Origin: Ischnura elegans
Lineage: Eukaryota > Arthropoda > Insecta > Odonata > Coenagrionidae
DNA length: 64,000 bases
Direction of reading: 5' to 3'
Assembly (NCBI RefSeq): GCF_921293095.1
Contig: NC_060258.1
Location: 3,720,001 to 3,784,000, forward strand
The notes beneath the pieces are model-generated. The model was not told the origin of the DNA, did not search any database, and worked only from the letters and a program-made list of their open reading frames with translations. Numbering within the stretch: position 1 is the stretch's first letter; each line of letters opens with the position of its first letter. This document shows, piece after piece, positions 1-48,700 of this stretch. Both the position numbers and the translations under genes were made by a program.

Positions 1-727
1 GAGAAAATTAGGTCCACGAAATATATATCATCATAGATCTAATCAATTTTTACTTATATAAATTATGAAATTGACGCTATATTTCTTCTTATCTTATTTT
101 AAAAGCATTCAGTGCAGAGCACATCAATTGACAGGCTCTGCCAGTCAGGCCAGGAGTCCACTCTCCGCCTCGATACGTCATTAATATCCAATCCAAGTCC
201 TTCCACCATGTGTATGACCTTCAACAAGAATCCCTCTTATAAACCGTGTGCACCATTTGTAAAAAGCAGTGTTTGAACGGAAGGTATGTTATGGAAAACT
301 CCCTCTGATTTTCTTTCTTATTTAATTGACCAATTCTAATGACTTTCATGAAAATCACATCCACATCGAATGAGCAACATGTTAATAGCTAACGAGATGA
401 TACAAATAAATAAAATACTAAAGAAAATTAGATCCACAGAAAAATATATAAATTCACAGAGCAAATTAATTTTATTGATCCAACTTATAAAATTGACGTT
501 ATTTTCCAAGCAGCCTACTTTTCCTCTCATCCCTTTCTAAAAGGGTGCTGTCCTCCTTTTTTCACCTCGTGGCATCTGGTCTTCCTAGTCACACAAGCAA
601 GGGTGACTACCCGTAGAAATGCATTCAATTACACTGGGCTAAAGCAATTTTGTCTAGCAACATAGTAAATATCAATAAATTAAGGTCGTGTAACAAGTGT
701 TTCACTTTGGATGAGAATAAAACTTAC

Positions 728-895
728 CAACATATTATCTCTGAATTGACGGGAGTCTGGCAGGGGAATGTATATTTCAGTCCTTTGGACTGAATGAGTG
801 AGATGTGAGGTGCCTTGTATCTCATTTTGAATGAAGTCTTTTGTGTCAGCAGGAGTCCCCAGTTTGTCATCAGTTGCCTCATCCCCTTGGATACT
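728..895 (-). CDS. Paralogue exon 3: linker
   Basis: The exon has 56 codons with the CTCCACAG acceptor and GTAAGT donor conserved. The sequence SIQGDEATDDKLGTPADTKD and onward differs from the + strand exon at about a quarter of positions but without a stop or indel. Confidence 0.72.
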
Positions 896-3800
896 CTGTG
901 GAGAAAGTAACTGTGATAAACTCACCTCCTTCAATGTCAAAAAATGAAGCACACTCATAATATTGATGAAATAGGATTATCAATGTGATATCCAAGCATT
1001 TGGGTAAAGATTGACATGTTTCTCTTAGTCCAAAACTCAAAAGCTAAACAGCTACTGAAACCAAATTAGGCAGGAAGATACTTGGTATACTCGGTTCACA
1101 TAGTGGCTGTATTACAACATCCTTGGGGCAAGGGAAGAGGAAAAAAAATGTTTTCAACGATAGTGTTCTAAAACGTGAATCTATCATGTTGTATATGTTT
1201 TTGATTAATTTTAAATGTAATTGAACACCTGTTTCTATGTACTCAAATACCAACCCTAGGAAAGAAGAAATACATCTGATATGCTGTCCACTTTCTGAGG
1301 CCGAAAAGTATGAAATCATCATCTGTCTGATCCTGAATGGGAGTGTTATAGGAAAGTGCTTGAGATGAGGAGAAAATGTTCAAAGTCACAAAACATCAAA
1401 GATGGGACAGCAGCTAGAGATACTTGGGACGAATTTCAATGGGTAAGAGAGCAATGCCTGAACAGCCAATGCACTGAATAGTGTAGGGCACATCAAAGAA
1501 CATAAACAGGAATCTAAGAAATTCTGACAGCTCCACATGAATAGTCTGGTGGATGAAACGTTTAATAATTTAGGAGATTTTTAATTTTCAAATCACATCC
1601 CTTATAAAAGTATGTACAGTTAACCCTAGAACGACGGACTGGGTCCATTGGACCCAGTTGGTAGTTTTGAAAGTTTATAATTATGTCAAAAATGCACGAA
1701 ACTGATTTTGACGCCGTGACTTTTCCTAAATGCATGTCCTCTATAAAATAGCAAGTAATAACGAGAATAGGCTCATTACATTTTACGGTATACTACAAAG
1801 TTACATAGTGGACGGACTGGGTCCATTGGACCCAGTTGACTATTTTCAATGCTATGGGTAATTCATTTCAACTTTTCAGCAATTTTCTTATTTACTTTGT
1901 ATTTCTGGGAGATTCAATGCTTGCGGAGTTATAAACAAAGCCGTAGGCAATACTTATTACCAATTAGTGGGCGATTTTTATGGATGGGCTGGAAGCCTTT
2001 CATATTCTCTTACAACGTCACATTTAGAGTGATACGGTCAGAAACATGTATCCACACCGTTTCGTAATGGGTAGTTTTTGCCACTTTCTCTGGTTTGACG
2101 CACACACAGTGTGAATTATCTACATTCAGTCCAATAATCTATTAGTTTTGTATGTGAGACCGTTCATCTAACGTCTGCAGTGCTTTCGTGGTGGTCAGTC
2201 AGAAGTTACGTTCGCAAACTGGAGTATTCTTGCTGCCTGCCGACATTTGTTTTTATTCCAACTATCTAACTGAAGACATTGAAGAATTTGAATTCCATCA
2301 TTACATTTTGATACCGTACATGGTAAGTACAAACCTTTATGGATTATATAAAAGATTATAGTCTTTCATTCTAATGTACTACTTCAGCATTTACTTCATT
2401 TACCAAATCGTTATTCCTCCGATGGATTAGTTAGATGAAGTGGTGTATTGATTTCCATCTACTATGATATACAGCAATTTTATTATTCCTAACTTTACAG
2501 GATGCTTAGTGGTACCAAATTTTTTGTTGTGAGGTATTGATGTGACTGAATTCATAGAGTGACTATTGATATACTGTGTAGTTGAGGAGCTAAGAAAAGG
2601 CGTCGCCCATTGGATATTACAGTCAAAATAACTATCAAGATATTTTTTAGGTAATAATAAAAAAGCATTGTTTGTAGTTCTTGTAAACATTGGTTGTTCT
2701 ACTATGACTATTGAGCTCTTTGAATTGCTTGATGATATCAGAAACATAATATGAGACAGTGCTTTGCTAATTTTTACCTCAATTCACAACAAAGGATTAG
2801 CACGAACAATGTTATCTTCCATTTATATCTAAGTAAAGTTTGGAATGAAAAATTGATAAATTTCATAGTCACTTTATTCACAGGCTTGCTAATAGTGACA
2901 CATTTAGAGTGGATTCATCTAAAGATTGCAGAAGGACGTGTTCAGCATCTAAACATATAGCGCTGACAGGAGGAGGGTAGTCGTGACTCCAGTGGTGATG
3001 GAGCCTAAAGTGTTGAATAAGGATGGAGTATAACTAAACCTTGGGCGATTTTTTTCTTCATCTTGCTGAGAAAATGATAGAAATACGAAAATGGGGAATT
3101 CTTATCGAGAGAAAATTTTCATTTCACGAAATCTGAAAGAGTGGTAAACAAAACCTCATGCCACTAAAAAGGGTAGAACGCAAAGGCGTAATATTTTGCG
3201 TCATATCCTGTACGCCGTGCGGAATTTTTATTCTGTCTTCTGCTCTTTTGCTAATTTTGCGTCCTAAGATTTTTGATTTTGTTAGAAAATGGACCATTGC
3301 TTCAAGCTTTGTAGAATGAAGAAAATGACTGGAATAAATAAGGTTCTGGGAATACTAGTATTTATTATTTTTACAAGTCAAATACGAAAATGTTTCACAG
3401 CTTTGGAGTAAACTAGACGGGCGACCAATATTCAACAGTATTATGGAGACAAAATAATACTGCATGTTATTCGCTTTGATAATGCCACAGAAATGAGGAA
3501 AAGCAGAGGCGAAGATAAGTTGCAAACTATTAGAGAGATATTTGATGGGCGGAATGAATATTTGAAATATGCATTCGTGCCAGGACCCTGCATGACAGTT
3601 GACATCAGTTATTGATGTTCCGTCGGCACTCTACCATTAGAGAGTTTGTTTCATCAAAACCAGGAAAGTATGGTATTACAACTTTGAATAAAATTGAAAT
3701 TTTGGCTGCAAGTGGTAGTAGTGATTCATACAAATGGAATACCCAAATATACACAGGTAGAGATTATAATATGTAGATGCCAAGAGGTCAATCAAGGAAA

Positions 3801-6800
3801 AAGATTTGTTACAGATATGGTTGAGGGACTAATCAGCCAGAAACATAATATGTGAAAGTAGACCGCTGACTACTTTCCAGAGGGGGTCATTCCATGTCAG
3901 TTCACCCAGGCATGGCACCCACCGACTCGGATTTTAATGAAATTTTTATCACTAGCTACTATCACCTATCTAATGACCCATGTAAAATATTTCCTCTCTC
4001 ACTCTCATAGTTTGCAAGATATGAGGAGTCAAAGTTTGAGATGTTTGCTCAGAAGTGGCATTAGTGGGAGTCAAATTCCAGAGTGCAGGGCACATCGTAA
4101 AAATTCATAACTCAGAAACCACATAATATATTTGAATGAAATTTTGACCCCTTGTCTATCCAAGTGCATAGCTTCCATAGTAATGACTTTTATTCCCCTT
4201 GCATTGTTATGTTAGCCAAAATGATGTCAACAGTTGTTAATTAACCGATTTTTTTAGCTCAAAAACATTACTTCATATTTTCAGAACTATCACCTAAAGG
4301 CAGAGCAGTTAACTCATCCATTTTTTTTTTAATTGAAGGTTAATATGTGCTCCAATATACTGTGAAATAAAAATGGTGGTGTTTTGACTGCCACTATGAG
4401 TATTTCAGGTTTTACTTTTTTTTTCTGCCCCCGTGAGAGGGATTTTGGACACTTACTGTAAGACAATAAATATAAGTGTATCCATAACTTCATGAGGATA
4501 TATTTGAAATATTGGTCAGTAAATCTAAGACCAAACATGTAGTCTAGTGAATGTGGCTCTTGTTCATACATTTTTTTAATAACAATACTTGGCTTGCGGC
4601 AGCTGAGGGGAAAAGAGTCCAAATGGCTCACAAATGTGAAATGATGCTTTTTCCTGGAATTTACCCATTTTTTCAAGTGTTTAGCATAGGGACAAATTGG
4701 TATCAACATACATTAGACTCTTACTGTGCATTAAGAGGATAAATGGAAATACTAATTTAAATAAAAATATGTAAATAATACACTTCAATGTGTTTAAGGC
4801 ATCTCCCGAACATCTCTGGAGGCTCTCTCGGGCAACTAAACGCTTTACAATACCACCAATTCCATCACATGGGGATTTTCCATATGGGTGCATAAATTTC
4901 ACTTTCACATTATGTTCTTCCTCGTGTTTAGAAATCACTAATCCAAAAAACCAGTGGTCATCATAAGCACGTGCAATGTTCAAGTTTGTTAAGATCTGTG
5001 AAAAAGTGATTAAATGAGTCCCTCTGAACTGGAGTTGTACAAAGTTAGCCTCACTTTCACAGAAGAAGTACGGTCTTCCAAACCCTTGGTGATGGAAGAG
5101 CTGGCAGAGCAATTGTATTACTTATAGATATGCAGCAGGTTGTCACCAATATCCACATTCCTTGATGGCAACTGGAGTATTAAATTTCTATTTCACTGGG
5201 AGAGATAATGCTGACATCATGTGCCACATTGTTTTCTCCCCTGCCTCACATATGAATGACATATGATTAGATGACAAACTTGAGAAGGTAATACAATCCC
5301 ACCTATTCAGCCTCACTTTTCAGTGTTATTCCATCTCCCTAAGGAATAAGAGAATTAAGTGCAACCTCTACATTTGGAAGAATATAATGTTACAATGTAT
5401 CACAGTGAGGGCATGATAAATCAAAATAGATTCTAGGGTAACACTTTTAGTCTTCTGCCAAATCTTCTTGTGTGAAGATGCTCCATGGGTGTCCAAGTTT
5501 ATTCTGTGTGTACGATCCGTGTATTTTTACCTGTACTTTAATTGTGTGTGCAATGAGTTAGGCGAAGCTGCTCATTGTGAACTTCAACATTAAAAAAGGT
5601 TGGTGTCTCCACTATGCTTCAAAATGAGCAACTTTTTTAACTGTGCAGCATCGAAAAGTAACTGCATCTGATTGCCTAAAAAAACCTACACACCAGTGGT
5701 GCAACTGAACAAAATTGAGATCATGAGTATACTTGAAAAACAGCTGTTATCTCTCAGAAGTGGTGTACCTGGGGAAGTCCTATCCAATGTCTGCGAACAT
5801 CACAGAATATACTATTTGAAAAAGTATGAAACCTACCAAATATATTGTCTTGATCCTTTTAAGAGCCACAAGAAGAAAATATCAAAATCACTAAGAAATG
5901 TAAGTCTTGAATTTACAGAAAAAGCCTGTAAAATCCCAACTCTTCGGAAATTAGTGCCAGGAATGAAAATATGCCAGCCATGTAGGGAGGAAGAACAGAA
6001 ACACTCCAGGTTTGGAAATGAGCTTTCTGATGTTGAAGAAGTAGATAGTGACAGCAATGATAGTATTTTGAATTTTGAAACAACAGTATCCCAAGAAAAA
6101 TCAAATGAGCTACTTAACAGAATGCAGCAAGATAGAGAGGAGTCACCTTTAAAATTTCATGGCATATCATCTCACAGAAGGTCAACCTACGCTAAAAGGA
6201 AAGTAGAGTCAGCATGCAGTAATTTTAAAAGGAAAGTTAAAAGAGTTCTTGATAAAGAATTATCTCCAGAAAAGGATGACCCAAAACTGCCAAAAGAACT
6301 ACTTCAGAAAGTTCATGATATGGATGTGCTCATAGACTTAATCAAACAAAAAGTTGACTCATCAAGCACTCATCAAGGAAAGGTACATCTGTTATCATTG
6401 GTACCAACTTCATGGAGCAGGAAAAAAGTAATGGAAGAGTTTCATGTGAGTGAGTACACTGCCCGCCAAGCAAGAGAACTTTTCAGAGACAATGGAAAAT
6501 TGGCTGCACCTGAATTGAGAAAAGGGAAGGCAAATATAAAACATTACAATTAGTTAGGACTTTCTATAAAATTGATGAGTACTCCAGAATGATGCCTGGA
6601 AAGAAAGATTCCATTAGTATATCCAAAAATGTACATGTTTAGAAAAGATTATTACTTGCTAACTTGAAGGAATTGTATTCCACTTTTAAATTTGACTTTC
6701 CCAGAATTAAAATTGGCTTTTCTAAATTCTGCAACATAGGTCCAAAATGGTTTGTGGTAGCAGGATCTCCTGGAACGCATTCAGTGTGTGTTTGCACAAT

Positions 6801-9800
6801 TCATTAAAATGTCAACTTACTGCTTAATGCCAGTAATATAGAGGAAACAAGCCAGGACCTAATTGGTTATTTAGTGTGCTCTAGAAAAAATAGGGACTGT
6901 ATACTGCGACATTGCTCTCAGTGTCCTTCACGTGAAAAGTTGAAAAGCTTACTGCTGAAAAAGTTTGAAGAATGTGACCCCGCAGATGAAGTTTCATTCA
7001 GTCAGTGGGATTCCCGTGACAGATCTCAACTGGTGAACTTCACTGTGACATTTGATGAGTACCGATTAACTTTAATGGAAAGAGTGGAAAAACTGGTGCC
7101 CCATTCATTTATTACGAAGGTACAGGCAAACTACCTTAAGCAAATGAAAGAAAATCTTGGACCCCATGAAGCAGTTGTTCTCCTTGACTTCAATGAGAAC
7201 TACTCATATGTTATCAAAGATGAGGCACGAGGGTATCACTGGACAAGTGATAGTTGCACGGTACACCCTGTTGTGATTTATACTCGAGATCACCTGACTA
7301 AACAGCTTATTATTTCCAGTTTATGCATCTTGTCAGATGATTTGGAGCATGATGTAGCTTTTGTTTATGAAACCAAAAGAATAATATTTTGCTTTGTGAA
7401 GAAAAATTTTACTTCAGTCAAAAAATTGAGTTACTTTAGTGATGGTTGTGCAGAACGGTACAAGAACTGCACACATTTCTCAATCTTTGCAAGCATTACC
7501 AGGATTTCTCTTTAATTGCATCATGGACATTCTTTGCTACAAGCCATGTAAAATCCCCATGTGATGGAATTGGTGGTATTGCAAAGCGTTTAGTTGCCCG
7601 AGAGAGCCTCCAGAGATATTCGGGAGATGCCTTAAACACATTGGTGTGTATTATTTACATAATTTTATTTAAATAAGTATTTCCATTTATCCTCTTAATG
7701 CACAGTAATAGTCTAATGTATGTTGATACCAATTTGTCCCTACGCTAAACACTTGAGAAAAATGGGTAAATTCCAGGAAAAAGCATCATTTCACATTTGT
7801 GAGCCATTTGGACTCTTTTCCCCTCAGCTGCTGCAAGCCAAGTATTGTTATTAAAAAAAATGTATGAACAAGAGCCACATTCACTAGACTACATGTTTGG
7901 TCTTAGATTTACTGACCAATATTTCAAATATATCCTCATGAAGGTATGGATACACTTATATTTATTGTCTTACAGTAAGTGTCCAAAATCCCTCTTACGG
8001 GGGCAGAAAAAAAAGTAAAACCTGAAATACTCATAGTGGCAGTCAAAACACCACCATTTTTATTTCACAGTATATTGGAGCACATATTACCTTCAATTAA
8101 AAAAAAATTGGATGAGTTAACTGCTCTGCCTTTTGGTGATAGTTCTGAAAATATGAAGTAATGTTTTTGAGCTAAAGAAAACGGTTAATTAACAACTGTT
8201 GACATCATTTTGGCTAACATAACAATGCAAGGAGAATAAAAGACATTACCATGGAAGCCATGTACTTGGATAGACAAGGGGTCAAAATTTCATTCAAATA
8301 TATTATGTGGTTTCTGAGTTATGAATTTTTACGATGTGCCCTGCACTCTGGAATTTGACTCCCACTAATGCCACTTCTGAGCAAACATCTCAAACTTTGA
8401 CTCCTCATATCTTGCAAACTATGAGAGTGAGAGAGGAAATATTTTACATGGGTCATTAGATAGGTGATAGTAGCTAGTGACAAAAATTTCATAAAAATCC
8501 GAGTCGGTGGGTGTCATTTTGAAAATTTCTGGGTGATTTGATGTGGAATGACCCGAGGTTTAGCGATTTTAGAGATCATGAGGTAAAATAAACGAGGGAT
8601 TCCACCCGAGCTCACGTCTGTAAATTCCATGCAGCCAACAGGGTTTCCTAACAAAGTGGTATCTCATGAATCTCATGGAATCCAAGAGAAAATCAACTAT
8701 CGGAAGAACTTACATCGTGAAAAAGAAAATTATGACAAACTCCTCCCCAACCTTAGCAACCTAGGAAAATAAGTGTCGTAAGTAAAACTACAAAAAGGAT
8801 AGAAAGACACAAACATCATCTTCACGATGTGCGCAAAATATATTCCAAGAGCATTCAGAAATTTTATGCAATCAGTGATTGCAGTAGCATAACGGTTTAT
8901 AATCTTTGTAAATGCATCATAGTTTTGTTTCATTAAATTTGTTACATATCTTATTTAACATGGCCAAATAATCCATTTTGTAATTTGTGTTCATGTAATT
9001 GTGCTAATGAACATACATAAAAATGGGAAAGGTGGAGTGATATTTCTGGTAGAGAGAATAAATTATGCATCGCTGCAGTAATAGCTTCCAACAAAATAAT
9101 TTAATAATAATAATAAATACGAGAAGAAATATGTTAAAGAAATAAATAAGGTGGAAACCATCTCTTAACTCTGCCTAAATTTATCATAAAGTGGTTATAT
9201 TGTGGAAAAAATGTTTCAGGGTCCATTGGACCCAGTCAGGCTACTACGCGATAATTTTTTTTCAGTCTTCCTAGGGTTAACATGCTATTTGAGTTCTAGA
9301 TATATGTGAAAAGTTCTTGGCCAAAGTAATCTGCATAAATTTGAAAGTAAAAAAGAAAAAAAATATATAACATCAAATTCATTCCATTCTGTGCTCAAGA
9401 CTTAATATTTGACAATATAATAATAATTCATTTAACAAAATTTACTTACAAAGTGGAAAAACAATCCATTCCCTGTTCAAAGAAACACTTACAAAAACAT
9501 TTTTCTGGAAAGGTAAACATCTAACAAAATTACCTATCTATAAAAATATTTGGGTTAAAAAAAACTGTCTGCAAAATTTATCATAATTATCAAAATACTC
9601 AGTGCCAATTTTACACAAAAAACTTTCCTGAACAACCCCTAAAATTGAAGGATATGATATTGCAAGCCACAATTGGGAAGACTGTTACAAAGGTTAACCA
9701 CATCAATTATTAAAATATGGTATTTCACCAAATAAGCCATCTTTAGAATCAAATAAATAGAGCACATCACATTCAGTGCATGTCGTAGTTGGTATTCATA

Positions 9801-11412
9801 GAAATAGAACTTAAGAATTTGATAACATGAAAATTTGAAACAGAGAATACAATTTTAACTAATGGATTATCCAAATAACCTTTATTTTTATTCATAAAGA
9901 ATATTAGTTGTAATAGCTGAAATTACACACATTGTTCTAGCTCAACATACTCATATTAATAAAATATTTATGCAAAAATAAAAATGTACATACAATATTG
10001 TATCAAAGTAACTAATAAACACTCTAAACATATTGATACTTAAAAGATACGTCACATCTATCTTCTGATCGTTTTTTTATTTTACGTCGATTGTTTACAA
10101 CGTTTGTAATGATATTCTCGCAACAATCATCTCCAAAGCTCAAACGTAATTTTAAACACTTATGCATTCATTGTACCTCTCCTCTTTCCGCATTATAAGC
10201 CGTGAAAATTGAGAAAATTTTTTGACCATCAGCAGGTATATATTGTTATAAAATAGAGAAAACATCAAGAATTCACATTTTGTGCATGTGCAGTTGAGCC
10301 TGTGATTGGACACCAACTTACAGATCCATTTCAGTTCACCCTTACAAATAGCAGGAAATGGTAAGAGATTTTTTGTTAATTTTAAAATGCTTCGGCTACC
10401 CAAGTGAGTAAATATATTAAAAGGTATTGTTTCATAGCGTAGTGGGTTCATAGCCTTTTATGAGTTGGCGAACTTGAATGCCCCACTTTGTTAGCTATGA
10501 TTGTTTTACAAACACATATTCGAATGAGACAACAAAACCTCTGCGTATCACCACTGAAACATCAACTTCAAGGTAACAAGCACTTGACACGGAGATTGAG
10601 AAACACAGCTTGCGGGAAACTGGGCTAGTTTCACTATTCCGTCAACCATGTACGACTGCCTTTAAAGTTATCCAATATTATCAATTAACAAAAATAATGC
10701 TCTATTTATATTTACTCTCTACTCATAGCACGTTTTAAAATAAAGTTGGTTTTACCACCTTCAAGAAGTCATACAACATTCTTTTTCCTAAGTTATGGCA
10801 TCAAGTGAATAATCAATCACAATTTTGAGTAAATCCAATCAAACAACTGCTATAACAAGTTTAATCCACAAATAATGATTCAACTGGATTTCTCACAGCT
10901 GTCGACACAAAACAAAGACTCTCACTTAGCATTTTCCGAAACATGCCATGCACCAGTCTTCAAAAGAGAATAAACGAAAGTACTCACCCTAAAGCAATTT
11001 CTCCCAGAAAGTTTTCTCAGCTTTGCGTCCGATTGTAAACAAGTCATTTTGAAAACACTGAATTCCGTGAGCTTTTTCAAGCATAGTGGACACAGGGTGG
11101 TGGGCAGGCCATCTCCCACAGCAACCTAAGATAGAAATCAACACGCTATACATTGGAGAAGTGCGAAATGATGCTGATCACATGGAATAACTGAAGCAAT
11201 AAGACAAAGAAAAATAAATAAGTTGTAGATATCGAACCACTTACTTCTAACCCGAGTAAACCATTTATAGCATTCTTCACAGTCATTCTGCAAGCTACGT
11301 TGGAAGTGAATATGTTGTAAAAATAACCATTATTCTTCATGCATAGTCTGCACAAGGTATCCTCAGAATTCCTTTCTGATGAAGTGCTGAAAATCCCGGC
11401 GGTACGATTCAT
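728..11412 (-). CDS. Second ZAD zinc-finger gene (paralogue), partial, runs off left edge
   Basis: This is the head-to-head paralogue of the + strand gene. The exons visible are 11412-11245 (ATG, first half of the ZAD with CRLC), 11125-10988 (second half, CPLC, identical protein to the other copy) and 895-728 (linker exon). All are open, in phase 0, and keep the donors GTAAGT, GTGAGT and GTAAGT. No finger array is visible; any would lie beyond base 1. Intron 2 is about 10 kb here because a piggyBac-type element entered it, against about 2.25 kb in the other copy. It may be a working gene, or a ZAD-only remnant if the downstream exons are missing. The intact exons argue for a recent duplication or continued selection. 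Confidence 0.75.
3300..3880 (+). pseudogene. piggyBac transposase relic of element A
   Basis: Across shifted frames I read segments collinear with DDE_Tnp_1_7 transposases: a LDGRPIFNSIMETK-like block, IRFDNATEMRKSRGEDKLQT, IREIFDGRNEYLKYAFVPGP followed by CMTVD (the PG..TVDE region holding a catalytic Asp), then SSKPGKYGITT and the QIYTGRDYN region. Stops and frameshifts interrupt it, and the nested transposon cuts it at 3883. Any continuation after 8558 is too decayed to align by eye. Confidence 0.8.
3884..4876 (-). repeat. Left long inverted repeat of the 4.67-kb transposon
   Basis: Its reverse complement matches 7549-8554 from the tip through the sequence coding KSPCDGIGG..KRLVARESLQR. 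The left arm thus carries a reversed duplicate of the 3' coding end and non-coding tail of the element. Confidence 0.85.
4750..5112 (-). pseudogene. Rearranged C-terminal fragment of the same transposase family
   Basis: The open frame encodes YDDHWFFGLVISKHEEEHNV, then KVKFMHPYG fused directly to KSPCDGIGGIVKRLVARE. The WFFGLV..VKFMHP block looks like a small C-terminal domain, yet here it sits before the DGIGG block. The join looks like an internal rearrangement at a short homology rather than a normal gene end. Confidence 0.55.
5672..7673 (+). pseudogene. Transposase-like protein of the 4.67-kb element, broken
   Basis: There are three collinear blocks. 5672-6552 is an open frame of 293 residues that starts before a visible ATG and has a basic, coiled middle. 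6553-6873 is readable only through stops and a frameshift (DEYSRMMPGKK, IGFSKFCNIGPKWFVVAG, GTHSVCVCTIH). 6874-7673 contains VLLDFNENYSYVIKDEARGY, YFSDGCAERYKNC and, after a frameshift near 7446-7515, WTFFATSHVKSPCDGIGG. Asp in DFNENY, Asp in SDGCA and an acidic residue in CDGIGG are spaced like a DDE-type nuclease triad (inference). I recognise the protein type as a widespread uncharacterised, transposon-associated family of invertebrates, but not its name. Confidence 0.7.
7549..8554 (+). repeat. Right long inverted repeat of the 4.67-kb transposon
   Basis: It holds the C-terminal coding segment KSPCDGIGGIAKRLVARESL plus about 900 bp to the tip. Similarity with the left arm is high, with small indels and substitutions. 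Confidence 0.85.
9281..10987. other. Intron 2 of the left ZAD paralogue, no gene seen
   Basis: AT-rich sequence matching, inverted, about 13052-14565 of the other arm. The open frames on either strand are not conserved between the arms, so I call none of them. Confidence 0.7.
10988..11125 (-). CDS. Paralogue exon 2: C-terminal ZAD
   Basis: The exon has 46 codons with the LPTTLCPLC signature, an acceptor TAG and a GTGAGT donor. The amino-acid sequence is identical to exon 2 of the + strand gene, which suggests purifying selection or gene conversion. Confidence 0.88.
11245..11412 (-). CDS. Paralogue exon 1: N-terminal ZAD
   Basis: The exon has 56 codons from ATG (11412) to a GTAAGT donor, phase 0. 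It keeps CRLCMKN and DAINGLLGLE-like segments (KNAINGLLGLE here). It differs from the + strand copy by several amino-acid substitutions without stops. Confidence 0.88.
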
Positions 11413-12626
11413 GTTTCAACCTCAATCTCTCATTCAATCTTTAAATATGTTAAATCGTCGATGAAAGTATCAACACACGACAGAATGAGATCTTCAGATT
11501 CGTCACGGGAACTACATACTATTCGATGATATAACCTATATTTAGAATGCTCACGGTAAAAGACAAGTTTAAATTTTAAAATTTAAATAACTCATAAGCA
11601 CCTCAACGGAAAAATACACAACAGCAAAATGGATAAGACGGTTGACCTTGCAGTTCTCTGTAACAATGAATTTATAAGATCATGCAAGCAAAGATTTGTT
11701 TGCTTTCACTGAGTTTTAATTTACATTTTAGCCGCTAGAGGCACATATACATAGCAGGACTCTAATCAAGGCGCGTTCCGAAATTAACCGGCATTAGTAT
11801 GGAAGAAGGAGGATACTTTTCATTTTAGACTATGCAAGCAATATTAATGCTATCGGGACAGAGCATTGTTTCACGGTTTTGATGAGACACATTAAACGAC
11901 TATACAATGGTAGAATTTTTAGAGGCATATGGGTAAAGCAACCACGAAAGAAGTCTTCCATGAAGCAACATTAAAACAAGTCTTCAAAGAGTAGATAAGG
12001 TGAAAACTGTCTCTGTAAATGATACATTATATTTCAATTGATATTTATTCAGAATAATACGTTAATTACACATAATTAACTTTGAAAGAAAGCCTTAGAA
12101 AACAACTTTTTCATTTGAATTTTATAAGTGACGTTTTTGAGTGGAATATTTTATAAAGAGGAAAGGAAGAATAACACTTTAAGTTCCAAGAATATAAAAA
12201 TACAAACAATATTCTATTTATTGGCATACTCAGTCTCATACTTAATATTCACTTCTGCCGGAACGCTCCTTGATTAGAGGCCTGCTATGTATATCTGTCT
12301 CTAGCGGTAGAAATGAAAACTAACACTCAGCGAAAGCAAACTAATCTTTATTGCATGATCTTATATTGACATAGATTATTGCAGTGAAGTAGAAGGTCGA
12401 CCATAATATCAATTTTGCTGTGTATTTTTTCGTTCATGTGATTTTGAGTTATTTAAATATTAAAATTTAAACTTGTCTTTCATCGTAAGCATTCTAAATA
12501 TAGGCTTTATCATCGAATTGTACGTAGATCCCGTGACGAATTTGAAGATCACATTCTGTCGTGTGTTGATACTGTCATCGACGATTTAACATATTTAAAG
12601 ATTGAATGAGAGATTGAAGTTGAAAC
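11413..12626. promoter_or_regulatory. Divergent promoter region shared by the two ZAD genes
   Basis: The start codons face away from each other across 1,214 bp. The flanks (about 11413-11780 and 12255-12626) are inverted copies of each other and so probably carry both 5' UTRs and duplicated core promoters. A non-duplicated spacer of about 475 bp (11781-12254) lies between. I see no clear TATA box in a fixed position. Confidence 0.55.
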
Positions 12627-12794
12627 ATGGATCGTACCGCCGGGATTTTCAGCACTTCATCAGAAAGGAATTATGAGGGTACCTTGTGCAGACTATGCAT
12701 GAAGAATAATGATTATTACTTCAACATATTCACTTCCAACGTTGCTTGCAGAATGACTGTGAAGGATGCTATAAATGGTTTACTCGGGTTAGAA
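12627..12794 (+). CDS. Exon 1: N-terminal half of the ZAD
   Basis: The exon has 56 codons from ATG to a GTAAGT donor at 12795, phase 0. It carries the first zinc-ligand pair CRLC, followed by the NIFTS and amphipathic DAINGLLGLE segments typical of a ZAD. The minus-strand paralogue (11245-11412) differs at only a few residues, for example D2N, Y16S and E18D, and keeps the same donor. Confidence 0.92.
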
Positions 12795-15700
12795 GTAAGT
12801 GGTTCGATATCTACAACTTATTTACTTTTCTTTGTCATATTGCTTCAGTTATTCCATGTGATCAGCATCATTTCGCACTCCTCCAATGTATAGCGTGTTG
12901 ATTTCTATCTTAGGTTGCTGTGGGAGATGGCCTGCCCACCACCCTGTGTCCACTATGTTTGAAAAAGCTCACGGAATTCAGTGTTTTCAAAATGACTTGT
13001 TTACAATCGGACGCAAAGCTGAGAAAACTTTCTGGGAGAAATTGCTTTAGGGTGAGTACTTTCGTTTATTCTCTTTTGAAGACTGGTGCATGGCATGTTT
13101 CGGAAAATGTTAAGTGAGAGTCTTTGTTTTGTGTCGACAGCAGTGAGAAATCAAGTTGAATCATTAGTTGTGGATTAACTCAAAATTGTGATTTATTATT
13201 CACTTGATGCCACAACTTAGGAAATAGAATGATGTATGACTTTTTGAAGGTGGTAAATCCAACTTTATTATAAAAAGTGCTTTGAGTAGAGATTAAAAAT
13301 AAATAGATCATTATTTTTGTTAATTGATAATACTGGACTACTTTCAAGGCCGTCGTATATGGTTGACGGAGTGGTGAAACTATCCCAGTGTCCCGCAAGC
13401 TTTGTTTCTCAATCTCCATGCAATGTGATTTTTACCTTGCAGTTGGTGTTTTTGGTGATGATAAGTAAAGACGTTTTGTTGTCTGATTCAGCTATGTGCT
13501 CGTAAAATAATTATGGCTAACAAAGTGGGGCAATCAAATTCGTCAACTCATAAAAGGCTATGCACCCACAACGCAATGAAACCATCTCTTTAAATATTTT
13601 TGCTCACTTGGGTAACCGAAGCATGTTAAAACGAACGAAAAAATCTCTTACTGGTTCCTGCTAATCGTAATTGTGAACTTAAATTCAGCTGAAAATTAGT
13701 GTCCTATCATAGGCTCAACTACACACACACAAAATGTGAATTCTTGAGGTTTCCTTTATTTTTAATAAAACATACAAGCTGACAGTTCAAAAACTTCTCT
13801 CGATTCTCACGGCTTGTTATGCAAAAAGATTAGAGGTGCAATGTGTATAGAAGTGGCCCAGTTTTTGAAATTAAATTTCAGCTTTGAACTTGATAGTTGC
13901 AAAAAATATCATTACTAACGTTTTACATATATACATAAAATTGAACACAATGAGAAAATGGATGTGATGTATCTTTTGAGTAGCAATTTGTTTAGTTTGT
14001 CGGACAGTTACTTTGTTACAGGGTAATGTTTACATTTTTATTTTAGCAAAAATGTATGTTGATATGAGAACATTATATTTGCTAGAAAAATCTATGTCAC
14101 TTCAGCTATTACAAAATAATTTCGTTTTTGCGTAAAAATAAAGTCGCTTTAAATAATATATTAGTTAAAATTGCATTATGCGTTTGAAATTTTGGTGTTT
14201 GAAATCCCTAGGTTTTTTCTTTGAATACCAATTAAGAAGATCACTGAATCTGATATTCTGCATATTTTTGGGGTTGTTGAGGAAAAATTTTTTGTGCTAA
14301 ATTTACACTGGGTATTTTGATAATTATGATAAATTTTGAAGTCTGTTTTTTATAACTTCAATATTTTATTCATATAAGTAATTTTGTTAGAAATTTAACT
14401 TCTTTAGTGATTCTCTGTGCAGGGAATGGATTGGTGTTCCACTTTGTAAGTAAATTTTGTTTAATGAATTAGTTGTTTTAGAATTTTTTCTGATAAAATT
14501 TCAACTCAATACAGGTTTCTTTGGCGAAGAAATTTTTCACATAAATCTAGAGCTGAAAAAGCATGTTAGCTGTATTTACTTATTGTCTTACAAAGTGATG
14601 AGATTTAAAAATGTAAAAATCTCCTAAATTAGTAAGGTTTCGTCCACCAGATGATTGAAGTGGACTTGTCAGAATTCCCTAGATTCTCATTTGTCTTCTT
14701 TGCTATGCCGTACACTACTCAGTGCATTGGATGTTCAGGCATTGCTCTCTTGCCCGTTGAAATTGGTCCCGTATGTCTCTAACTGCTGTCTCTTCTATGA
14801 TGTTTTGAGTCCTAGAACAATTTTTTCTCCTCTTTACCGCTTTTCTGAAGTCTCCCATCCAATATCAAACTGACGATTCCATACCCTTCTGCCTAAGATA
14901 GTGGCCAAAATATGAGATATATCTCTTCTCTCCCTGGGTTGGTATTTGAGTACATAGAAACAGGAGTTCAATTACAATAGAAATGAATCAAAAACATATT
15001 CCACATCAAAGATTCACATTTAAAGACACACATGTTGAAAAAATTTGTGTATTTTCTTTCTCCCATGCCTCATGTATGTTGTAATACGGCCACTATGTGA
15101 ACTGATTATACCAAGTATTTTCCTGCCTAATTTGGTTTCAGCAGCATAAAAAAGCTTTTGAGTTTTGGATTGAGAGAAACATGTCAATCTTTACAAAAAT
15201 GCTTGGATATCACATTGAAAATCCTATTTCATCAATAGTACGAGTAAGCTTCATTTGTTGACATTGAAAGAGGTGAGTTTATCACAGTTACTTTCTCCAC
15301 AGAGTATCCAATGGGATAAGACAGCTGATGACAAGTTGGGGACTCCTGCTGACACAAAAGACTTCATTCAAGATGAGATAGATGGCACCTCACATCTCAC
15401 TTGCTCAGCCCAAAGGACTGAAATATACATTCCTGTGGAAAACTCCCAACAACTCGGATCTAATATGTTGGTAAGTTTTATTCTCATCCACAGTGAAACC
15501 TGAGTTTAATGACCCTAAGTTGTTGACATTTACTCGGTTGTTTTACATAAGTGGCTTTGTGCTGTGTATATGGATGCATTTCTACAGGAAGTCACCTTCG
15601 CTTGTTGGAATAGGGAGACCAGATGCCATGAGGTGAAAAATGCAGGACAGCTCCCTATTAAATAAGCAATGAGAGTAAAAGTAGGCCAATTGAAAAATAA

Positions 15701-18700
15701 TGACAATTTTATGGTTTGGAACAATGAAATTAATTTGCATTATGATTTTATATATATTTCTGGGTATCTACTTTACTTGAGTAATTTATATATTTGTTTA
15801 AGCTAGCTACCTGTTAACACATTCATTACGGATGCGATTTTCATGAAGGTCATCAGAATCGACCGATAAAATAAGAAAGACAAAGAGGGAGTTTTCCTTA
15901 ACATAACTTCAGTTCAAACAAGGCTATTTACAAAAGGCGCACACGGTTCAAAAAAGTGTTCCTTGCTAGAGGTCATACGCACAATCAAAAAGCTTGGGAA
16001 TGGCTATTAGTTTCTTATGAAGGCAGAGAATGGCCTCCTGGCCCGCCTGGTAGAGCACTTGTATTGACTAGCTAAATGCATTGACTTGGACGGGACTACG
16101 TCAATTGACATGTTCCACACGGAATGTATTAAATATGAGGTAAGAAGAAAGTAGGCAACTTGAAAAATAACGGCAATTTCACAAATTAGAACAGTATAAA
16201 TTAATTAGACATATGATTTTGTAATATTTTGTGGAAAAATTTTTCTCGAGCTATATTTGCATTTTTTACAGCTCGCTAGGTACCTGGTAACAGATTAACT
16301 ATGCACAAAATCATGATTTTCAATAAGAAGGAAAATTTCTCATTTATAAAAAATCCACCTGGATACCAGACGAATATCCCAACTCTACCCAGTGGCAGAT
16401 GTTTTATGAATAAAAATGCCTGTTGGCTCGGCCAGACATCTAGTGAGAAAGGATTAAAAGGAAAGGATGTATGGAGGATAAGCAGGGGACTTGAAACGTA
16501 ATTGTAAATTCATAATTAAGAGCAAAAGAAGTTAATTAGCACTGTGGTTTTGTTTTTGTTTATGGATCTAACTTTTCAAGCAATTTTTGTGTTTTTGACA
16601 ATGCTAAGTTTTTAACTTTTACTGAGGCCATGTTCCAATCCACCGTAAATGCATTTGCACTCTACTCAGCACTTTTTGATGGTCACATTTGGGAAGTGAT
16701 GTTGTCACCTATTGAGATTCCAGTCCACTACGGTCCTGCTCTGCAGAGTGCATAATCGAAGAGCACGAGAGAGGGCAAGGATTCACCCTTACTTGCTCTT
16801 CAACACGTTGGCTATGACCGCTTTCTGTTCATTATGTGAATTCGGATAGAATATGATTTGAGGTGGTGAATTGGTTCTTTAAATTGTTCATAATGAATAG
16901 AGTGGATATTAAATCCAAGTTAATCTAGGTTACATGTGAATCTCTGTGTCCAGTGGTCGGGAAAATCGGGAATTGTGATTGAATTTTAAATGTCTGGAAT
17001 TATGCATGAATTATTCTTGAAAATTTTCTCCATCCTGGCAGTTAAATTCATTTCAGGCATAATTTTTAAAGTTCAACGCCCATTATCTGGTGTAAAAAGT
17101 GTTTGTCATAATCGTAAGTGCAGTAGCTGAGTGGAATTTTTACAGCTGCATCGAACCATTAAAAGTCAGACAAGACTACAGAATCAAAATTCCTAGCACT
17201 ATTGTCTCAAGTAAGATTCAAAAAGTGGTGGAATAGGACAGGTGGCATCAGCATCTAGTTATGATGTTGAAGTAGCTTCTTGACTTGCATTGAATAAATT
17301 GCAATGATTAAATTAAATATGATTATGAAGTGTGTGTTAACTGATCCATTCCTTTGCCTTATAAATTTCTTATATATCACAGAAATCTCGTAACATCAAG
17401 GTGAAAAGTTTCCCTGGAAAAATCACAAATAACAGAAGAATTTTTCTGCTTTGGTTGGCTAGACACCCTAAATTTTTCAACTTACTGCATGTGAAATGTT
17501 GTGATGGGTAGCTATTCACAGTGATTAATATTTTAAATTTTAAGTACGCATTTATTAAATTGTTTTCTGTTTTAAAACCACTTAAATTTTTCTGAACCTT
17601 ATGCTTTACAAAATTGGTGTCCAAAATTAATAAATGTATTGTGAAGTGTAATGTTTACAATTGCATCCACTCCGTATTGTCACTGCTGTATTTTATATGT
17701 TATCACTTCCACATTTACATTTAGTGCAGTAAATATTGCAATAATTAATAGACAACAACAGTAACATTCTCTTAACGCCAAAATTCTCTAGTCAACTTTT
17801 TTCAGCTTTAAAATCGCCACTGTACAGTGGTGGCACCACTTGCAGTCAGAGCAAGAAAGAGCAAAAGAGCCGATAAGAGTGTTAGAGCACAACTACATAG
17901 GGTGCACCCTATGGATTGGAACACGGCCAGAGGCAATGTTTAGTTTGTTTCTCTCGGTGGTCCACTGGGTTGAAATTAGGGAAAATACCCTTTCTGCAGT
18001 TTTATTTTACCGTGGTAAGCTTAAGAAATATTCAGAAATTTTGTTGAGAGTTCTGAGTGGCTATTAACACATTTATATACATATAATAATGATTTTCAAA
18101 AAGAAGGACTCTTCACCATTCTTAAAAAAGCTGCCCAGGCACCGTACCTATAAAGGATGACATGTCTAGACCAACCCAGATGTCTGGTTACCCTATATGA
18201 AGGCGTCATCAGTACATCATTTCATTTCATTTATATACGGGATTACCCATTAACGATATTCTTATGTATAACATCACAGATGATAGACCACAGAAAAGAC
18301 GAAACACACATTTAATGAAACCACTCAATAAAAAATTTAAAAATGTATGAAGAATTCCACATCAATGAACCAAATATATAGGCAGATACAATAATATTAA
18401 TGTTAAGTTATGAAAATGTTCTCGTAGTAGAATTTTTAAAATTGAGATCATGTCCTAATTGACGAGTCCAGATTAATCGGAAAATCTGGTCACCCTGTGT
18501 GTGACCATCAGTTGCACAACATGAGGCAAAAAGTGTAACCGCCCTAATCTACATGGGCATGTGTGTGGATATTAGCTTTCTTATACCACCATTCTTGTGA
18601 GAGAAATGTAACACATCCCATGGAGGAGTCTTATGGTGGACTATCTCAATTCTCCTTCATAGCCTATTGTTTTTGCTACAGCGTAGATGAATCTCAAGAT

Positions 18701-21700
18701 TGCTCTCTTTTTCTTCAATCAATCTTCGTGCTTGACCTCAGCAAAGGAAGTAGCCAGAACCCTCATGTAGCTTTATTATAAGTAAGGGAAGCATAATTGA
18801 GACCCAAATTCAACTTATTCATTCAGTAATTGAATCTACAAAAGATAGGTAGATAAAGCATAAAAATAGTCTTTAATAGTAATTTAAACATGAGGAAGCA
18901 CGTTTCCTTTATGTTGCGTGAGTATGTGTGTCTCTGAACCAAAGAAACTGTTCGACCGTCCCATCAACTCTCACAAAGAGTTTCCTTTGCATTGTGTGCG
19001 TGCTTGTGACTCTACCGATGAAACCCTAGCAAAGCACCTTCATCCATCGCAAACACTTCCTCTGAGCTGAGTGCATGTAATGGGTTTCCGGTTTAGAGGC
19101 TCGTGTTGGTCACTACTATGAATTCTTCCATTCCATCAAACCAACACAGTATTTGTTTTGACCTGCTGCTTGAGCCTAAGGTTATGGTCATAAGAGACTA
19201 TTTTCATGTTTCAGGATTGAAGCTGTAGAGCTCGCTTTAACTTTTCTGTAGCACAATCTGACGAGTGTACGAAAGGTGCAGTCAAAATTGTGTCTTGTAT
19301 AGGATGGAAATGCTAGAACAAATGCGCGAATGCATGGCTGTGAGATGGCAAAATAGCCCTTGTTCTCATGCCATTCATACATATGTTCAGTTCCTTGCCA
19401 TTTTAGAGATAAATGCCATTCCAACCTGAGCAATTCTGTGCCGAGTGTAAAACAGCCTTATCAAAGATTTTGTAGTTTGCAATCTTGAATCACTTGCATT
19501 TTTCTGTCATTGTGCCATGTCAACTACATCGATACCCATAGATGTAAAACAGCCAACAAACAAATCAGTCAATGATCCAGAATGTGGAATTTTTACTGCT
19601 GGAATGGTATATGCTTCTTTCCTGTCACTAAATTTCCTTAACATGACGTTTTTTGTAACATATGTGTAGTTTTTGGTGAGGGATACCTGTAGTAGAATCA
19701 AATATTTGACGAAAAGAATTTTTTCTTCCATGGAATGTCCTGATTTGTACGTATGACGGAAAAAAATACTAGAGTTATTGTTTAGAAGTTGTGTAATAAC
19801 TGACTGAAGGAGACAATGTCATCATAGACTGCTTGAAAATCTGTTTATCCTGAAATGGATTAAGGATGAGGATTTTACTTAACTCCATTGCAAATAATGG
19901 GAAAACACTAATCTCTCTGGACCTATTGTTTTGCTGTGGTAATTTTTTAAAACAAATTATAATGCACTACAAATGACAATATAAATTAAACTTCTATGGG
20001 ATAAAATCGTGTCTCCCTTATGTTATCCCTTTGACTATTATGCTGTTTTCACTCTCTATTGGTAGCATCCAAGCTGCATTCTCATTACTTGAGTAGGAAT
20101 TAAAGTTCAAGGCAGATAACTTCACTGCCTTGATTCCAACATGCATCTCGTGTCTTTATGATAACATTGTAATTTGTTATGCTACTTATGTGATCAAGCA
20201 TTATCACTCTGCATATATTTACTTGCCATAAATCATTCAAGGGTGGCTTTTTCCTTGGCCTCTTATAGGCGAAGAAAGTTAAAAATATTTAGATACATTT
20301 TATATCATTTTATATTGTGGTGAACTTTTCTTCCTAGGCTCATTGATACTTAAATTTTCCACCTAATTACGTACATTAAATGGTTACGTGTGCCTAACAA
20401 AGACCTTGCTGTATGTACTTATTATTGATGCCTACCTTGTACTTACAGCTTCCTTCATGGTATTAGCCTTTGGTAAATCGTAGTTACTATTTTTAGTTAT
20501 TACATTGCAATCATTGCTTTTTGATGGCAATGATGCCATTTTGTGTGTGGGGAAACAAAGCTGTCCATGTTAACAATGCAAGAAACTTATGAATGCCTTT
20601 TTAGAATCTAGATGTCGTTGCTTCAGGCGAAGTGTGTGACAAGGTTTTTTTAAATTTGCTACTTGGGTCAGTGATGGTAGACAAACACAAGTTTCATGAG
20701 ATATTGATCAATGAATTGACATTTCATCTAAAATTTTGTACAGGGTGATAAATCCATATAATTCAAAACATGTCATTGCTAACTATTGTTATCCTAAAAC
20801 CCTATTTCATATTTCGGGAAGAAACTAATAGCTCTGCACTTATCGCCCCTTCATTTAGAAAGGCATATTTAGCCCAAATGTATCCATAATTTGAATAAAA
20901 GCTGAAATATATTTTGAAATTCGTGTAGACATTGAAATGAACTATATCAATAGGCATAAACTAGTTTTTGGTCTTTCACATAACTTAATTTGATGCTTAT
21001 TTCATTCTATGGAAACTTTAGATAATTATACATTTCATCATGCAATTGTTGTGGGACTTTATGTTTACCTATTGGTTATTAATGTCTGACTCACATTCAA
21101 TATCACCTTGATCCATAAAAAGGCCAGTTTACTGGAAAAATAAAGCATCAAATTAATTTTGGATGGTACCTAGTGTGAGATTCATGGGCCAATGCTGGTC
21201 ATTGTTGTTATCAATATGGAGAATAAGGTCTGAACTTGGCTAAATAATCATAAAAATTGGGGTGTGTTTTTTCCATTTCAATTAATAGGAGATGTGCTGT
21301 ATGCTTTTGTTTTGCTCGGTGTTTTAGACATACCAGTGTAAAGTAACTGAACAGTATAGACTGAATCGATGGGTCTCCTAAGTGGTGATCTGCAGTTGAT
21401 CTCTATAGTCTAGAACTGGAAATTTTCACTGCTTTTGAATATCATGTTGCTTAAACTTTCATTGCATTCAAAGTTGTAACCAGAATTTTTCAAAATGTTA
21501 TTTTTTTATGGAATTGCTTTTTGCTATTAGGGTCATCCATTAATTACTTAGCATTTTACTAGTCATTCTTCTTTGAACACATAATGTATCTTTTTTCTCA
21601 GTTTATATTAAAAAACTATTATCCATTACACAGATAAGATTGAGGTTAGTAATTTAATTTTTGGAAATATTATTTGATGCTTTCCCAGCAGATAATGTGG

Positions 21701-40681: not shown

Positions 40682-40862
40682 TTTGAATAGTCTTTCTCTC
40701 AAAATAGTCACCCTGTTCGTCACATTCCGACTCATATGAAGGAGAAACCATGTTCGTGCAGTGAATGTGGAAAGTCTTACGCCACTTAACAAAACCTTGT
40801 CCTACTCACGCGGGTGCATCGGAAAAAAGCCTTATTCTTGCAATGAATGTGGAATGACTCTT
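40682..40862 (+). pseudogene. Vestigial C-terminal zinc fingers after the stop
   Basis: After the stop at 40679-40681 the same 84-bp periodic sequence continues, with THMKEKP-like and HRKKAL-like linkers, a CSECGKS finger start and further stops and frameshifts. The ancestral array was longer by about two to three fingers and was shortened by a nonsense change. This stretch is now probably 3' UTR. Confidence 0.85.
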
Positions 40863-40948
40863 AATAGATTCACCTTTTCTTTCATTTGCAAGCACACAGG
40901 GTTAAGTTTTAGTTGGCTAGTCATTAGTAATTGTTAGCAATCAAGGAA

Positions 40949-40954
40949 AATAAA
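40949..40954 (+). terminator. Candidate polyadenylation signal
   Basis: AATAAA lies about 270 bp downstream of the stop codon; further AATAAA-like hexamers occur near 40984 and 41051. The placement is plausible for the zinc-finger gene, but which one is used cannot be told from sequence. Confidence 0.45.
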
Positions 40955-42765
40955 TCTTATTATTACAAGAACTGCTTGTATGAAATAAAAAATAATCCCA
41001 TAATGTTGAGAATTATGTAATAATATTCAATTTGGTATGTAACCTAATTTAATAAATGTTCAAGTTATTTCCTGTGCGATATTTTCAAGGACTAAATAAT
41101 TTATTCCTTTATTTTAACTGCTATTTTTTACTGGTAAAAAATTATTTACATTTGAATGTAAGCCATGCATTGCAACACTTTCGATAAAAACTGCAGGCAC
41201 TTTGTCCCAAGAATAATTTTCATTGTTTTGTCAATGTTAATTGTGTGATTGATCAATGTTTAATTGTCTGATCGATGTTAGTTGATGTAGTGCTTCTATG
41301 TAATTTATATGCAAATATCAAGTTAACAATAATACCCGATTGATGGAGAGAGTGTTAAGCTGAATGACTGGTCTGTTTAAATTGTTGATTTACCCGCATG
41401 AAGAATTGCATCAATATTGTGTTTTACTTTGAGTGCCTGCACCACAATTACCATGCAATTCTTTGTACAAATGACAATAATATTTCCCTGCAGTGTATAA
41501 ATAGTTTTTAAAAATTAAAATTGTCGTATTAGACGCGTAGTTTTGCGTGTGAAGATACATCAATTGAGATTATTTAACATGGACAAAATATTTCACTTAA
41601 AAATAGTGGTGAATATGCATATTTTTATTGCAGGGAATGAAAATCCCCGGTTTTCTAAGTCCGCAAAGGCATTGCTATCATGTAGATATTTTGGGAGCGA
41701 AGTCATAAAAATTTACGCATACAACATGTCTGACTGACATTCTGGTGTTAACCTTTCAATAATTTATGTCGATTGATTGATTGATTTATTAAGTCACCGT
41801 AAGCATTTGCATTATGCATGGCTTTGTCAAGGATGTTACATGTATTACACAATATGAATGGAAAAACAATGCTCAAATAACAAAACAATATAAAAATATA
41901 TAAATACATACAGTTTACAATTTTTTTGTGAACACATTTCAATTACACACTTAAATTTTTTACATTAAAAAGTCATCCACACTATAGAATAATTCCCTTA
42001 AAAGTAGTTTTTTCACGGCACACTTAAATTTAAAGGAACTTTTGATATTTTTTACATAGCTTGGCAATTTATTATACACAAGTATTCCCTGATGGTCTAT
42101 GCCTTTAATTGTTTTATTTACTCGGTGCTGACTTACATGGATTTCATTTTGGCTTCTTGTATTATGACTATGAATGTCACAATTTTTAATAATCATGTCT
42201 TGTTTTTTTTAATAAGAGAGACTGTTTCAAGAATATATATACAAGGGAGTGGTAAGATTTCCAATTTTTCAAAAATAGGTTTGCTGGGAGCTCTATTATT
42301 GGAATTAGTTATTATGCGAATAATCTTTTTTTGCATTTTAAATAATTTTGGTAGGAAGATAGAGGAGCCCCAAAATGGAATACCATAATTAAAAAGTGAC
42401 TGCACATAGCCAAAATATATCGTTCTCAATACCTGAATACAAGTGATTTCCTTGAGTACACGGAATGCATAACAGATATGTGCCATTTTTTGAGTTAATT
42501 TATTGATGTGTTCTTCCCATGAAAGATTAGAGTCAATCCAGATACCTAAAAACTTTGTTACCCTAAGTTCTTTTATAGGGTAACTGTTAATTATTGGATT
42601 AAAATTTATTATCTTCTACTTAAGATTGAAATTTAAATAATGGGTTTTACTAACGTTTAAAGATAGCTTATTATCGGTGAGCCAGTTCATCAAATTGTGT
42701 GTAGTTTCTGTTACCTCGTTCATTAGCTGAATGGGATTATGGTTTTTAAAAATTAAGTCAGTATC

Positions 42766-48562: not shown

Positions 48563-48700
48563 TTAAGTGTATCACCTGAGTTTTTTTAGGGTTAAGTTGA
48601 AGCTTCATGGTGGTAATCCAGTCTTCGACGTAGTCCAGGTGTTCTGGGATGCAGTTCACATCCGAGGTTTGGTTGAAGGACGTGCGAAAATGGAGAAGTA

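Follow-up and report, generated by a model that had tools for sequence, protein, structure and literature searches.

Mirror-image pairs of ZAD zinc-finger genes on chromosome 13 of Ischnura elegans: evidence for copying as a unit and for putative gene conversion around the ZAD exons

Background

ZAD-ZNF genes of Drosophila are described in the main text of Kasinathan et al. 2020 (PMC7655104) as combining an N-terminal ZAD, a variable and fast-changing linker and a C-terminal C2H2 array, with lineage-specific gains; mediation of protein-protein interaction by the ZAD is stated there for the family. In a stretch of 64,000 bases of the Ischnura elegans genome (hereafter the window; C13:3,720,001-3,784,000 on the main scaffold of chromosome 13, C13, of 21,320,372 bases), two ZAD first exons point away from each other, each lying in one arm of an inverted duplication. 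Such a locus raises the question of whether the pair is a one-off, how its two halves came about and by what means their ZAD exons have stayed alike.

Here we present evidence that the pair belongs to a large set. The original prediction of a head-to-head ZAD gene pair in a large inverted duplication holds, and the structure is larger than it said: the pair is one of at least 59 tight divergent pairs, a recurrence that the prediction had missed, and its arms amount to about 78 kb. An old inverted duplication would have set two complete ZAD-C2H2 genes, copies A and B, head to head, and on chromosome 13 this pair would then have been duplicated many times over as a single unit, in either orientation. 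The setting for such segmental copying is most likely a chromosome for which transposon enrichment and reduced recombination along its whole length are reported in the text of Willink et al. 2023 (PMC10781644). In many units the inverted cores would have exchanged sequence in tracts that centre on the ZAD exons and measure between a few hundred bases and about 1 kb, so that the ZADs of partners were repeatedly made alike while linkers and finger arrays stayed separate and diverged in finger number and predicted contacts. Taken together, pair structure, whole-unit copying, conversion tracts and complete open frames make up a reading that we judge, from comparison of the sequences, to be very probable.

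The genome searched comprised 110 contigs with 1,722,721,009 bases. Scoring was confined to the best candidates in each search, so that all genome-wide counts are minimum values; the candidates scored were 150 of 901 (ZAD family), 40 of 670, 150 of 689 (exon-1 peptide) and 40 of 152 (finger-exon starts); from the search with an exon-2 pattern, 100 of 451 places were listed. Scaffold order, size and the description in PMC10781644 suggest that C14-C17 are unlocalised scaffolds of chromosome 13. The order of the contigs had also suggested a B chromosome as the source of the window (C19 being at least 58.9 Mb), which was rejected on the genome note for I. elegans, where chromosome 13 is an autosome of 21.32 Mb, matching C13 in length.

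Results

Two complete genes in inverted arms

The two ATGs, at 11412 (-) and 12627 (+), point apart with 1,214 bp between them, close to the predicted 1.2 kb. Each opens a predicted eight-exon ZAD-C2H2 model with a single terminal stop, of 976 aa on the right and 836 aa on the left (Table 1). If joined directly, exon 3 and the finger exon are out of phase, which led to the finding of exons 4-7; exons 4-8 were located with I. elegans proteins of sister units as guides, the splicing being modelled. The exons are open, and GT/AG splice sites and phases agree between the arms in both genes, as had been claimed from the first exons. Pfam zf-AD (PF07776) scores the two ZADs at 50.2 and 49.0 bits (cut-off 28), and the closest solved chain is 7pok_A (E 2.3e-4). 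Both models thus carry the marks of the ZAD-ZNF family, an N-terminal ZAD and C-terminal tandem C2H2 fingers in one frame. Whether the left copy has a finger array had been left as a question, and it does, in an exon about 20 kb outside the window.

The two arrays differ. The right one has 18 or 19 fingers depending on the motif chosen, supported by Pfam and motif, with a regular tandem period of 84 bp (39081-40778, 86% matches); the left one has 10 finger motifs, one of them atypical. Predicted from motifs, contact types number 7 among the 19 right fingers and 10 among the 10 left ones, with 1 in common.

The public model P0017 starts inside exon 2 of the left gene and agrees with the gene from there on, except that its C-terminus differs. 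It is thus without most of the ZAD; work relying on it would miss the paired structure. Among the 97 proteins examined from the I. elegans search, none matched the exact ZAD of either window gene.

The genes lie in inverted arms of about 37-40 kb per side, covering the whole genes and beyond, the left arm running past the window to coordinate -28625 (C13:3,691,375). Inverted copies of at least 4 kb had been predicted; the inverted duplication stands, its size having been understated. The blocks of the arms are collinear, with 72-88% identity, and are split by many insertions, some of them outside the window; the only departure from collinearity is a weak block at 23720-24527 of the right arm. 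An alignment of 2,055 bases at 83.8% identity (E = 0) excludes chance.

The pair is one of many

Four merged search listings yield at least 324 distinct ZAD gene starts on five scaffolds (C13-C17). Among these, every pair of neighbours less than 6 kb apart is divergent (59/59), and neighbours 6-80 kb apart comprise 12 divergent, 37 tandem and 28 convergent; the latter counts serve as a weak control, since adjoining members of two divergent pairs necessarily face each other. An isolated, one-off pair is ruled out by this recurrence. The 19 close pairs of exon-2 matches, among the matches listed, are spaced 1.66-2.85 kb apart.

Several searches place the family on the same scaffolds, which, taking C16 as the contig of 11.08 Mb, amount to 73.4 Mb or about 4% of the genome. 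From the best 150 of 901 candidates of the ZAD family search, 134 of 146 matches fall on C13-C17, as do all 150 of the best 150 of 689 exon-1 peptide matches. The exon-2 pattern, with at most one mismatch, matches the genome at 451 places and its reversed control at 0. Protein searches with both gene models returned I. elegans proteins only (75/75 and 74/74 matches); the matched proteins were placed on C13, C14, C15 and C17, and one on a contig of 11,083,892 bases, probably C16. Among the best 40 of 152 finger-exon starts, 26 have a same-strand exon-1 match upstream within 60 kb (at 16-58 kb) and 3 have one on the other side. A finger exon is present on both sides in 6 of 30 pairs, among the matches listed.

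From the 62 matches listed without a partner, 20 were drawn at random and the first 6 by position examined. Three of these, L039, L041 and L043, each have a second, divergent ZAD no more than about 2 kb away, degenerate in the case of L041 and L043. For L042 and L044 the divergent match lies farther off, at 7.1 kb and about 16 kb; for L040 there was no divergent ZAD partner in the sequence viewed.

Two observations concern the distribution of the starts. On C13, 69 of 77 ZAD gene starts, among the matches listed, lie within the first 8 Mb of the 21.3 Mb scaffold. On C14 a group of three ZAD starts is repeated at three places, near 1.20, 2.66 and 7.53 Mb, and several exon-1 copies of equal score are scattered over the scaffold; this pattern points to large segmental duplications.

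An old A/B pair copied as a unit

For the history of the pairs we compared a subfamily of 15 pairs (30 genes), made up of 14 intact loci and one pair with a gap of 16.4 kb (L027/L028). The intact pairs were picked because both halves had matched, and the set carries no estimate of pairing frequency. In the distal part of intron 2, partners are 19-22% apart in 13 of the 15 pairs and 10% apart in L018 and L021, and the nearest gene of another unit is only 0.1-8.4% away; the partner is nearest for 0 of the 30 genes. A tree of distal intron 2, covering 27 of the 30 rows (the other 3 had 800 or fewer aligned columns), splits into two clades of 13 and 14 rows with support 100/100. Both members are present for 12 pairs, every one of which contributes one gene to either clade, and the two clades branch alike. 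Two congruent clades with one member per pair indicate that the inverted A/B pair is old and, as reconstructed from these trees, was copied as a unit.

The same data bear on two other accounts. Recent, independent inverted duplications would make partners alike simply because they are young; partners are indeed alike in the core, and a single-copy spacer such as that between the arms is expected from an inverted duplication. The distal halves, however, do not cluster by pair: each is closer to another unit than to its partner, and the A and B clades are congruent. This account is thereby refuted for the subfamily sampled, and overall it is barely credible. An assembly artefact is just as hard to credit. 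Inverted repeats can mislead assembly, and the identical cores in particular may have been collapsed; among the public proteins examined, exact ZAD matches hit a single half of any one unit (L015, L026, and L014 or its copy L027), and one protein fits both identical halves of L022. Yet several scaffolds carry the unit, its copies differ in sequence and their A and B trees are congruent, and the window arms are 12-28% apart in distal blocks, far above sequencing error.

Putative gene conversion limited to the core

The core around the ZAD exons tells a different story from distal intron 2. Here the partner is the nearest relative for 14 of the 30 genes, and the core tree joins several partners that the distal tree separates. 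In L016, L019 and L022 partners are 0.0% apart in exon 1, intron 1 and exon 2 and about 17-23% apart further into intron 2. Intron 1 is 0.0% diverged between partners in five pairs (L016, L018, L019, L022, L023). Runs identical between partners reach 1,012, 999, 643 and 635 bp, the last ending at the limit of the compared stretch, and cross exon-intron borders; the edges of identical tracts vary between pairs. A near-identical core that includes introns, with edges specific to each pair, argues for arm-to-arm gene conversion limited to the middle of the structure.

The extent of the putative exchange is uneven. Core divergence between partners ranges over 0-11% across units; in L024 and its copy L025, at 11%, there has been little. 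The window pair is intermediate: exon 1 differs by 5.4%, intron 1 by 2.5% and exon 2 by 0.7%, whereas about 150 bp into intron 2 drift sets in (10.7%), reaching 12.8-23.8% per bin from 300 bp, which suggests that exchange here was older or partial. Exon 2 differs at a single silent position in 138 bases, and the exon 2 proteins are identical, as noted originally. Drift of the introns, also noted, is confirmed for intron 2 and not for intron 1. Of the features of a gene-converting palindrome, inverted arms and a small spacer of 478 bp are present and near-identity over the whole length is absent, the distal blocks being 72-88% identical.

Purifying selection on the ZAD exons, with no exchange between arms, would be an alternative source of similarity. 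Between units exons 1-2 differ by 4.6-6.5%, less than intron 1 (8.9-11.6%) or distal intron 2 (6.8-8.8%), and so appear somewhat constrained; the pairs in which intron 1 is more diverged than the exons (22.9% in L024, 13.6% in L017) are explained by selection as well as by an older exchange. Selection predicts neither the introns 1 that are as similar as the exons (0.0% in five pairs, 2.5% here), nor the identical runs across exon borders with edges that differ between pairs, nor the grouping of partners in the core tree alone. The pairs with identical introns refute it as the only source of core identity, and in general we regard it as very improbable. The original prediction had offered selection or gene conversion acting on both copies; the latter is favoured, and signs of the former are weak.

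Several observations weigh against conversion and maintained function as a general account. In the core, a gene of another unit, and not the partner, is the closest relative for 16 of the 30 genes, and the partners in the L038 subfamily are not homogenised at all (18.7% apart in exon 1, 31.2% in exon 2). In the window itself exon 1 differs at 9 of 168 bases, changing 7 residues. Among the matches listed, 13 of the 19 close pairs mix two exon-2 sequence types, and 14 of the 40 finger-exon starts have no upstream exon-1 match within 60 kb. For exons 1-2, pN/pS is 0.72 (24 distinct sequences of 30); between the window arms, dN/dS comes to 0.74 in exons 3-7 and 1.1 in the first part of exon 8, giving 0.83 for the two together (bootstrap 0.57-1.31). 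A stop interrupts exons 1-2 in 3 of the 30 genes, two of these being mutual copies. The persistence of heterotypic pairs shows that matching ZADs are not required for the upkeep of a pair, and it speaks against ZAD matching for pairing as a general rule. A third subfamily (L036, L037) is homotypic, with exons 1 and 2 differing by 2.4-5.8% and intron 1 of L037 by 0.0%. The head-to-head layout spans several subfamilies and is therefore probably older than their split.

Weak constraint on the coding sequence

The genes are mostly open and, on these ratios (0.7-1.1), appear weakly constrained and near neutral. In the right exon 1 (12627-12794), replacements at residues 2, 16 and 32 are absent from the other 29 compared genes, which suggests relaxed or changed constraint. 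In the sampled subfamily, peptide alignments of exons 1-2 are gap-free and the distance from exon 1 to exon 2 varies over 282-288 bases; the changes in length therefore sit in intron 1.

The units may accordingly be seen as mostly decaying passengers of segmental duplication, with conversion as a passive by-product and genes of little function. The ratios for the linker parts, the stops, the degenerate partners of L041 and L043 and the many insertions fit this, as do the transposon enrichment and reduced recombination described for chromosome 13 in PMC10781644. Against it, exon-1 matches are stop-free in 149 of the best 150 of 689 (a set biased to the best), exons 1-2 are free of gaps and less diverged than introns, and both window models are open over all eight exons, through 976 and 836 codons. 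We hold this account to be a serious possibility, somewhat short of even.

No sign of a constrained shared promoter

A bidirectional promoter shared by the two genes had been predicted, and it could hold the pair together. In its favour, all 59 close neighbours are divergent and the 19 exon-2 pairs listed fall into a narrow range of spacings. Nevertheless, between units (14 in all, four of them aligned over only 60-64% of the gap) the 478-bp spacer differs by 7.05%, distal intron 2 by 6.8 and 8.8% and the outer upstream parts by 13%; these values for single segments may be blurred by the upstream sequence being present in inverted copies. Conservation of the spacer does not exceed that of the introns, and a constrained shared promoter is therefore not supported. 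Upstream of each gene there is also a separate inverted copy of about 368 bp, and in L027/L028 exons 1-2 are still intact across a gap of 16.4 kb. Transcription of the two genes may be coupled; a shared promoter as the tie between them we consider unlikely.

Discussion

Relation to known systems

We take mirror-image pairs with core conversion as a variant of lineage-specific ZAD-ZNF expansion. The layout of ZAD, linker and C2H2 array and the lineage-specific expansion are common to the Drosophila genes (PMC7655104, main text). Unlike these, the Ischnura family has at least 324 starts on five scaffolds taken as one chromosome, with close neighbours head-to-head and a homogenised core; the words gene conversion do not occur in the main text of PMC7655104. 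We found no description of such pairs in the titles and openings of abstracts listed, most subscription papers and supplements being outside this scope, and no paper of the literature searched in which Ischnura and ZAD co-occur as whole words.

The palindromes of the human Y and other sex chromosomes likewise hold paired genes in inverted arms that are homogenised by arm-to-arm exchange. In the Ischnura units, by contrast, homogenisation is confined to about 0.4-1 kb around the ZAD exons and the rest of the 37-40 kb arms is 12-28% apart, and chromosome 13 is an autosome. Mammalian KRAB-zinc-finger clusters also combine many finger genes, a common N-terminal interaction domain and diversifying arrays, mainly as tandem copies, whereas the Ischnura units are head-to-head palindromes. 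KRAB-zinc-finger genes are likened to ZAD-ZNF genes in the main text of PMC7655104.

Chromosome 13 also carries the female colour-morph locus, which the text of PMC10781644 places at the start of unlocalised scaffold 2, with three zinc-finger-domain genes expressed in two species. The chromosome, the zinc-finger-domain genes and low recombination are common to both systems; the window lies on the main scaffold, outside the locus, and we claim no role in colour for its pair. The one match examined on the scaffold taken to hold the morph locus, C15:621394 (L035), is a diverged ZAD, with no second ZAD in the 9 kb covered. The word ZAD does not occur in the text of PMC10781644.

Possible function and significance

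Like ZADs could keep partners able to pair while their arrays diverge. A functional reading, in which both genes would be expressed as DNA-binding proteins whose near-identical ZADs dimerise and so bring two arrays into one complex, strikes us as doubtful. A bolder proposal is that chromosome 13 acts as a factory for paired transcription factors, in which palindromic units are copied, core conversion matches the ZADs and arrays diversify, each unit giving a private heterodimer with a new composite DNA target and the colour-morph zinc-finger genes being offshoots; this we rate as quite improbable.

Units that descend from one old A/B split, with cores 0-11% apart, provide a natural series for measuring local conversion in a diverging palindrome. 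They also give concrete gene content to a chromosome reported for low recombination, transposon load and female colour polymorphism.

Other features of the window

Table 1. Arms, exons and other features of the locus. Positions are those of the window unless given on C13.
Feature	Position	Strand	Basis or remark
Right arm of inverted duplication	12259..49677	+	collinear blocks interrupted by insertions
Left arm	1..11780	-	aligned blocks 9424-11780 and up to 1603; rest is insertion
Single-copy spacer between arms	11781..12258	.	478 bp
Core, putative gene-conversion zone	10861..13178	.	10861-11623 against 12416-13178, 95% identity
Right gene exon 1 (ATG, ZAD first half)	12627..12794	+	arm alignment, Pfam, splice sites
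Right gene exon 2 (ZAD second half)	12914..13051	+	arm alignment, Pfam, splice sites
Right gene exon 3 (linker)	15303..15470	+	same exon in I. elegans protein P0005
Right gene exon 4 (linker)	25365..25484	+	sister-unit protein guide, splice sites, phase
Right gene exon 5 (linker)	28448..28576	+	sister-unit protein guide, splice sites, phase
Right gene exon 6 (linker)	32188..32319	+	sister-unit protein guide, splice sites, phase
Right gene exon 7 (linker, ends phase 1)	33981..34053	+	sister-unit protein guide, splice sites, phase
Right gene exon 8 (linker end and C2H2 array)	38679..40681	+	Pfam, finger motif, full model
Left gene exon 1 (ATG, ZAD first half)	11245..11412	-	arm alignment, Pfam, splice sites
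Left gene exon 2 (ZAD second half)	10988..11125	-	arm alignment, Pfam, splice sites
Left gene exon 3	728..895	-	splice sites, sister-unit protein guide
Left gene exon 4, beyond window	C13:3,714,097-3,713,978	-	sister-unit protein guide
Left gene exon 5, beyond window	C13:3,712,506-3,712,378	-	sister-unit protein guide
Left gene exon 6, beyond window	C13:3,710,654-3,710,523	-	sister-unit protein guide
Left gene exon 7, beyond window	C13:3,708,230-3,708,158	-	sister-unit protein guide
Left gene exon 8 (fingers), beyond window	C13:3,699,680-3,698,098	-	about 20 kb outside window
TTAA-flanked insertion, left gene intron 2	1622..9279	.	flanks and gap in arm alignment

The insertion in intron 2 of the left gene, which from its ends we take to be of piggyBac type, holds an inverted repeat of 1 kb (3884-4883 and 7546-8554, 95.7%) enclosing two open frames, for which there was no Pfam match. 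Related sequence is found again 7-8 kb past the right end of the window. Long open frames in other frames cross the right finger array at 39704-40801 (343 aa on +, 365 aa on -), owing to the 84-bp repeat. Finally, a fragment resembling RVT_1 at 44284-45114 (-) scores 29.5 bits, just under the cut-off of 29.6, and probably comes from a LINE-type element.

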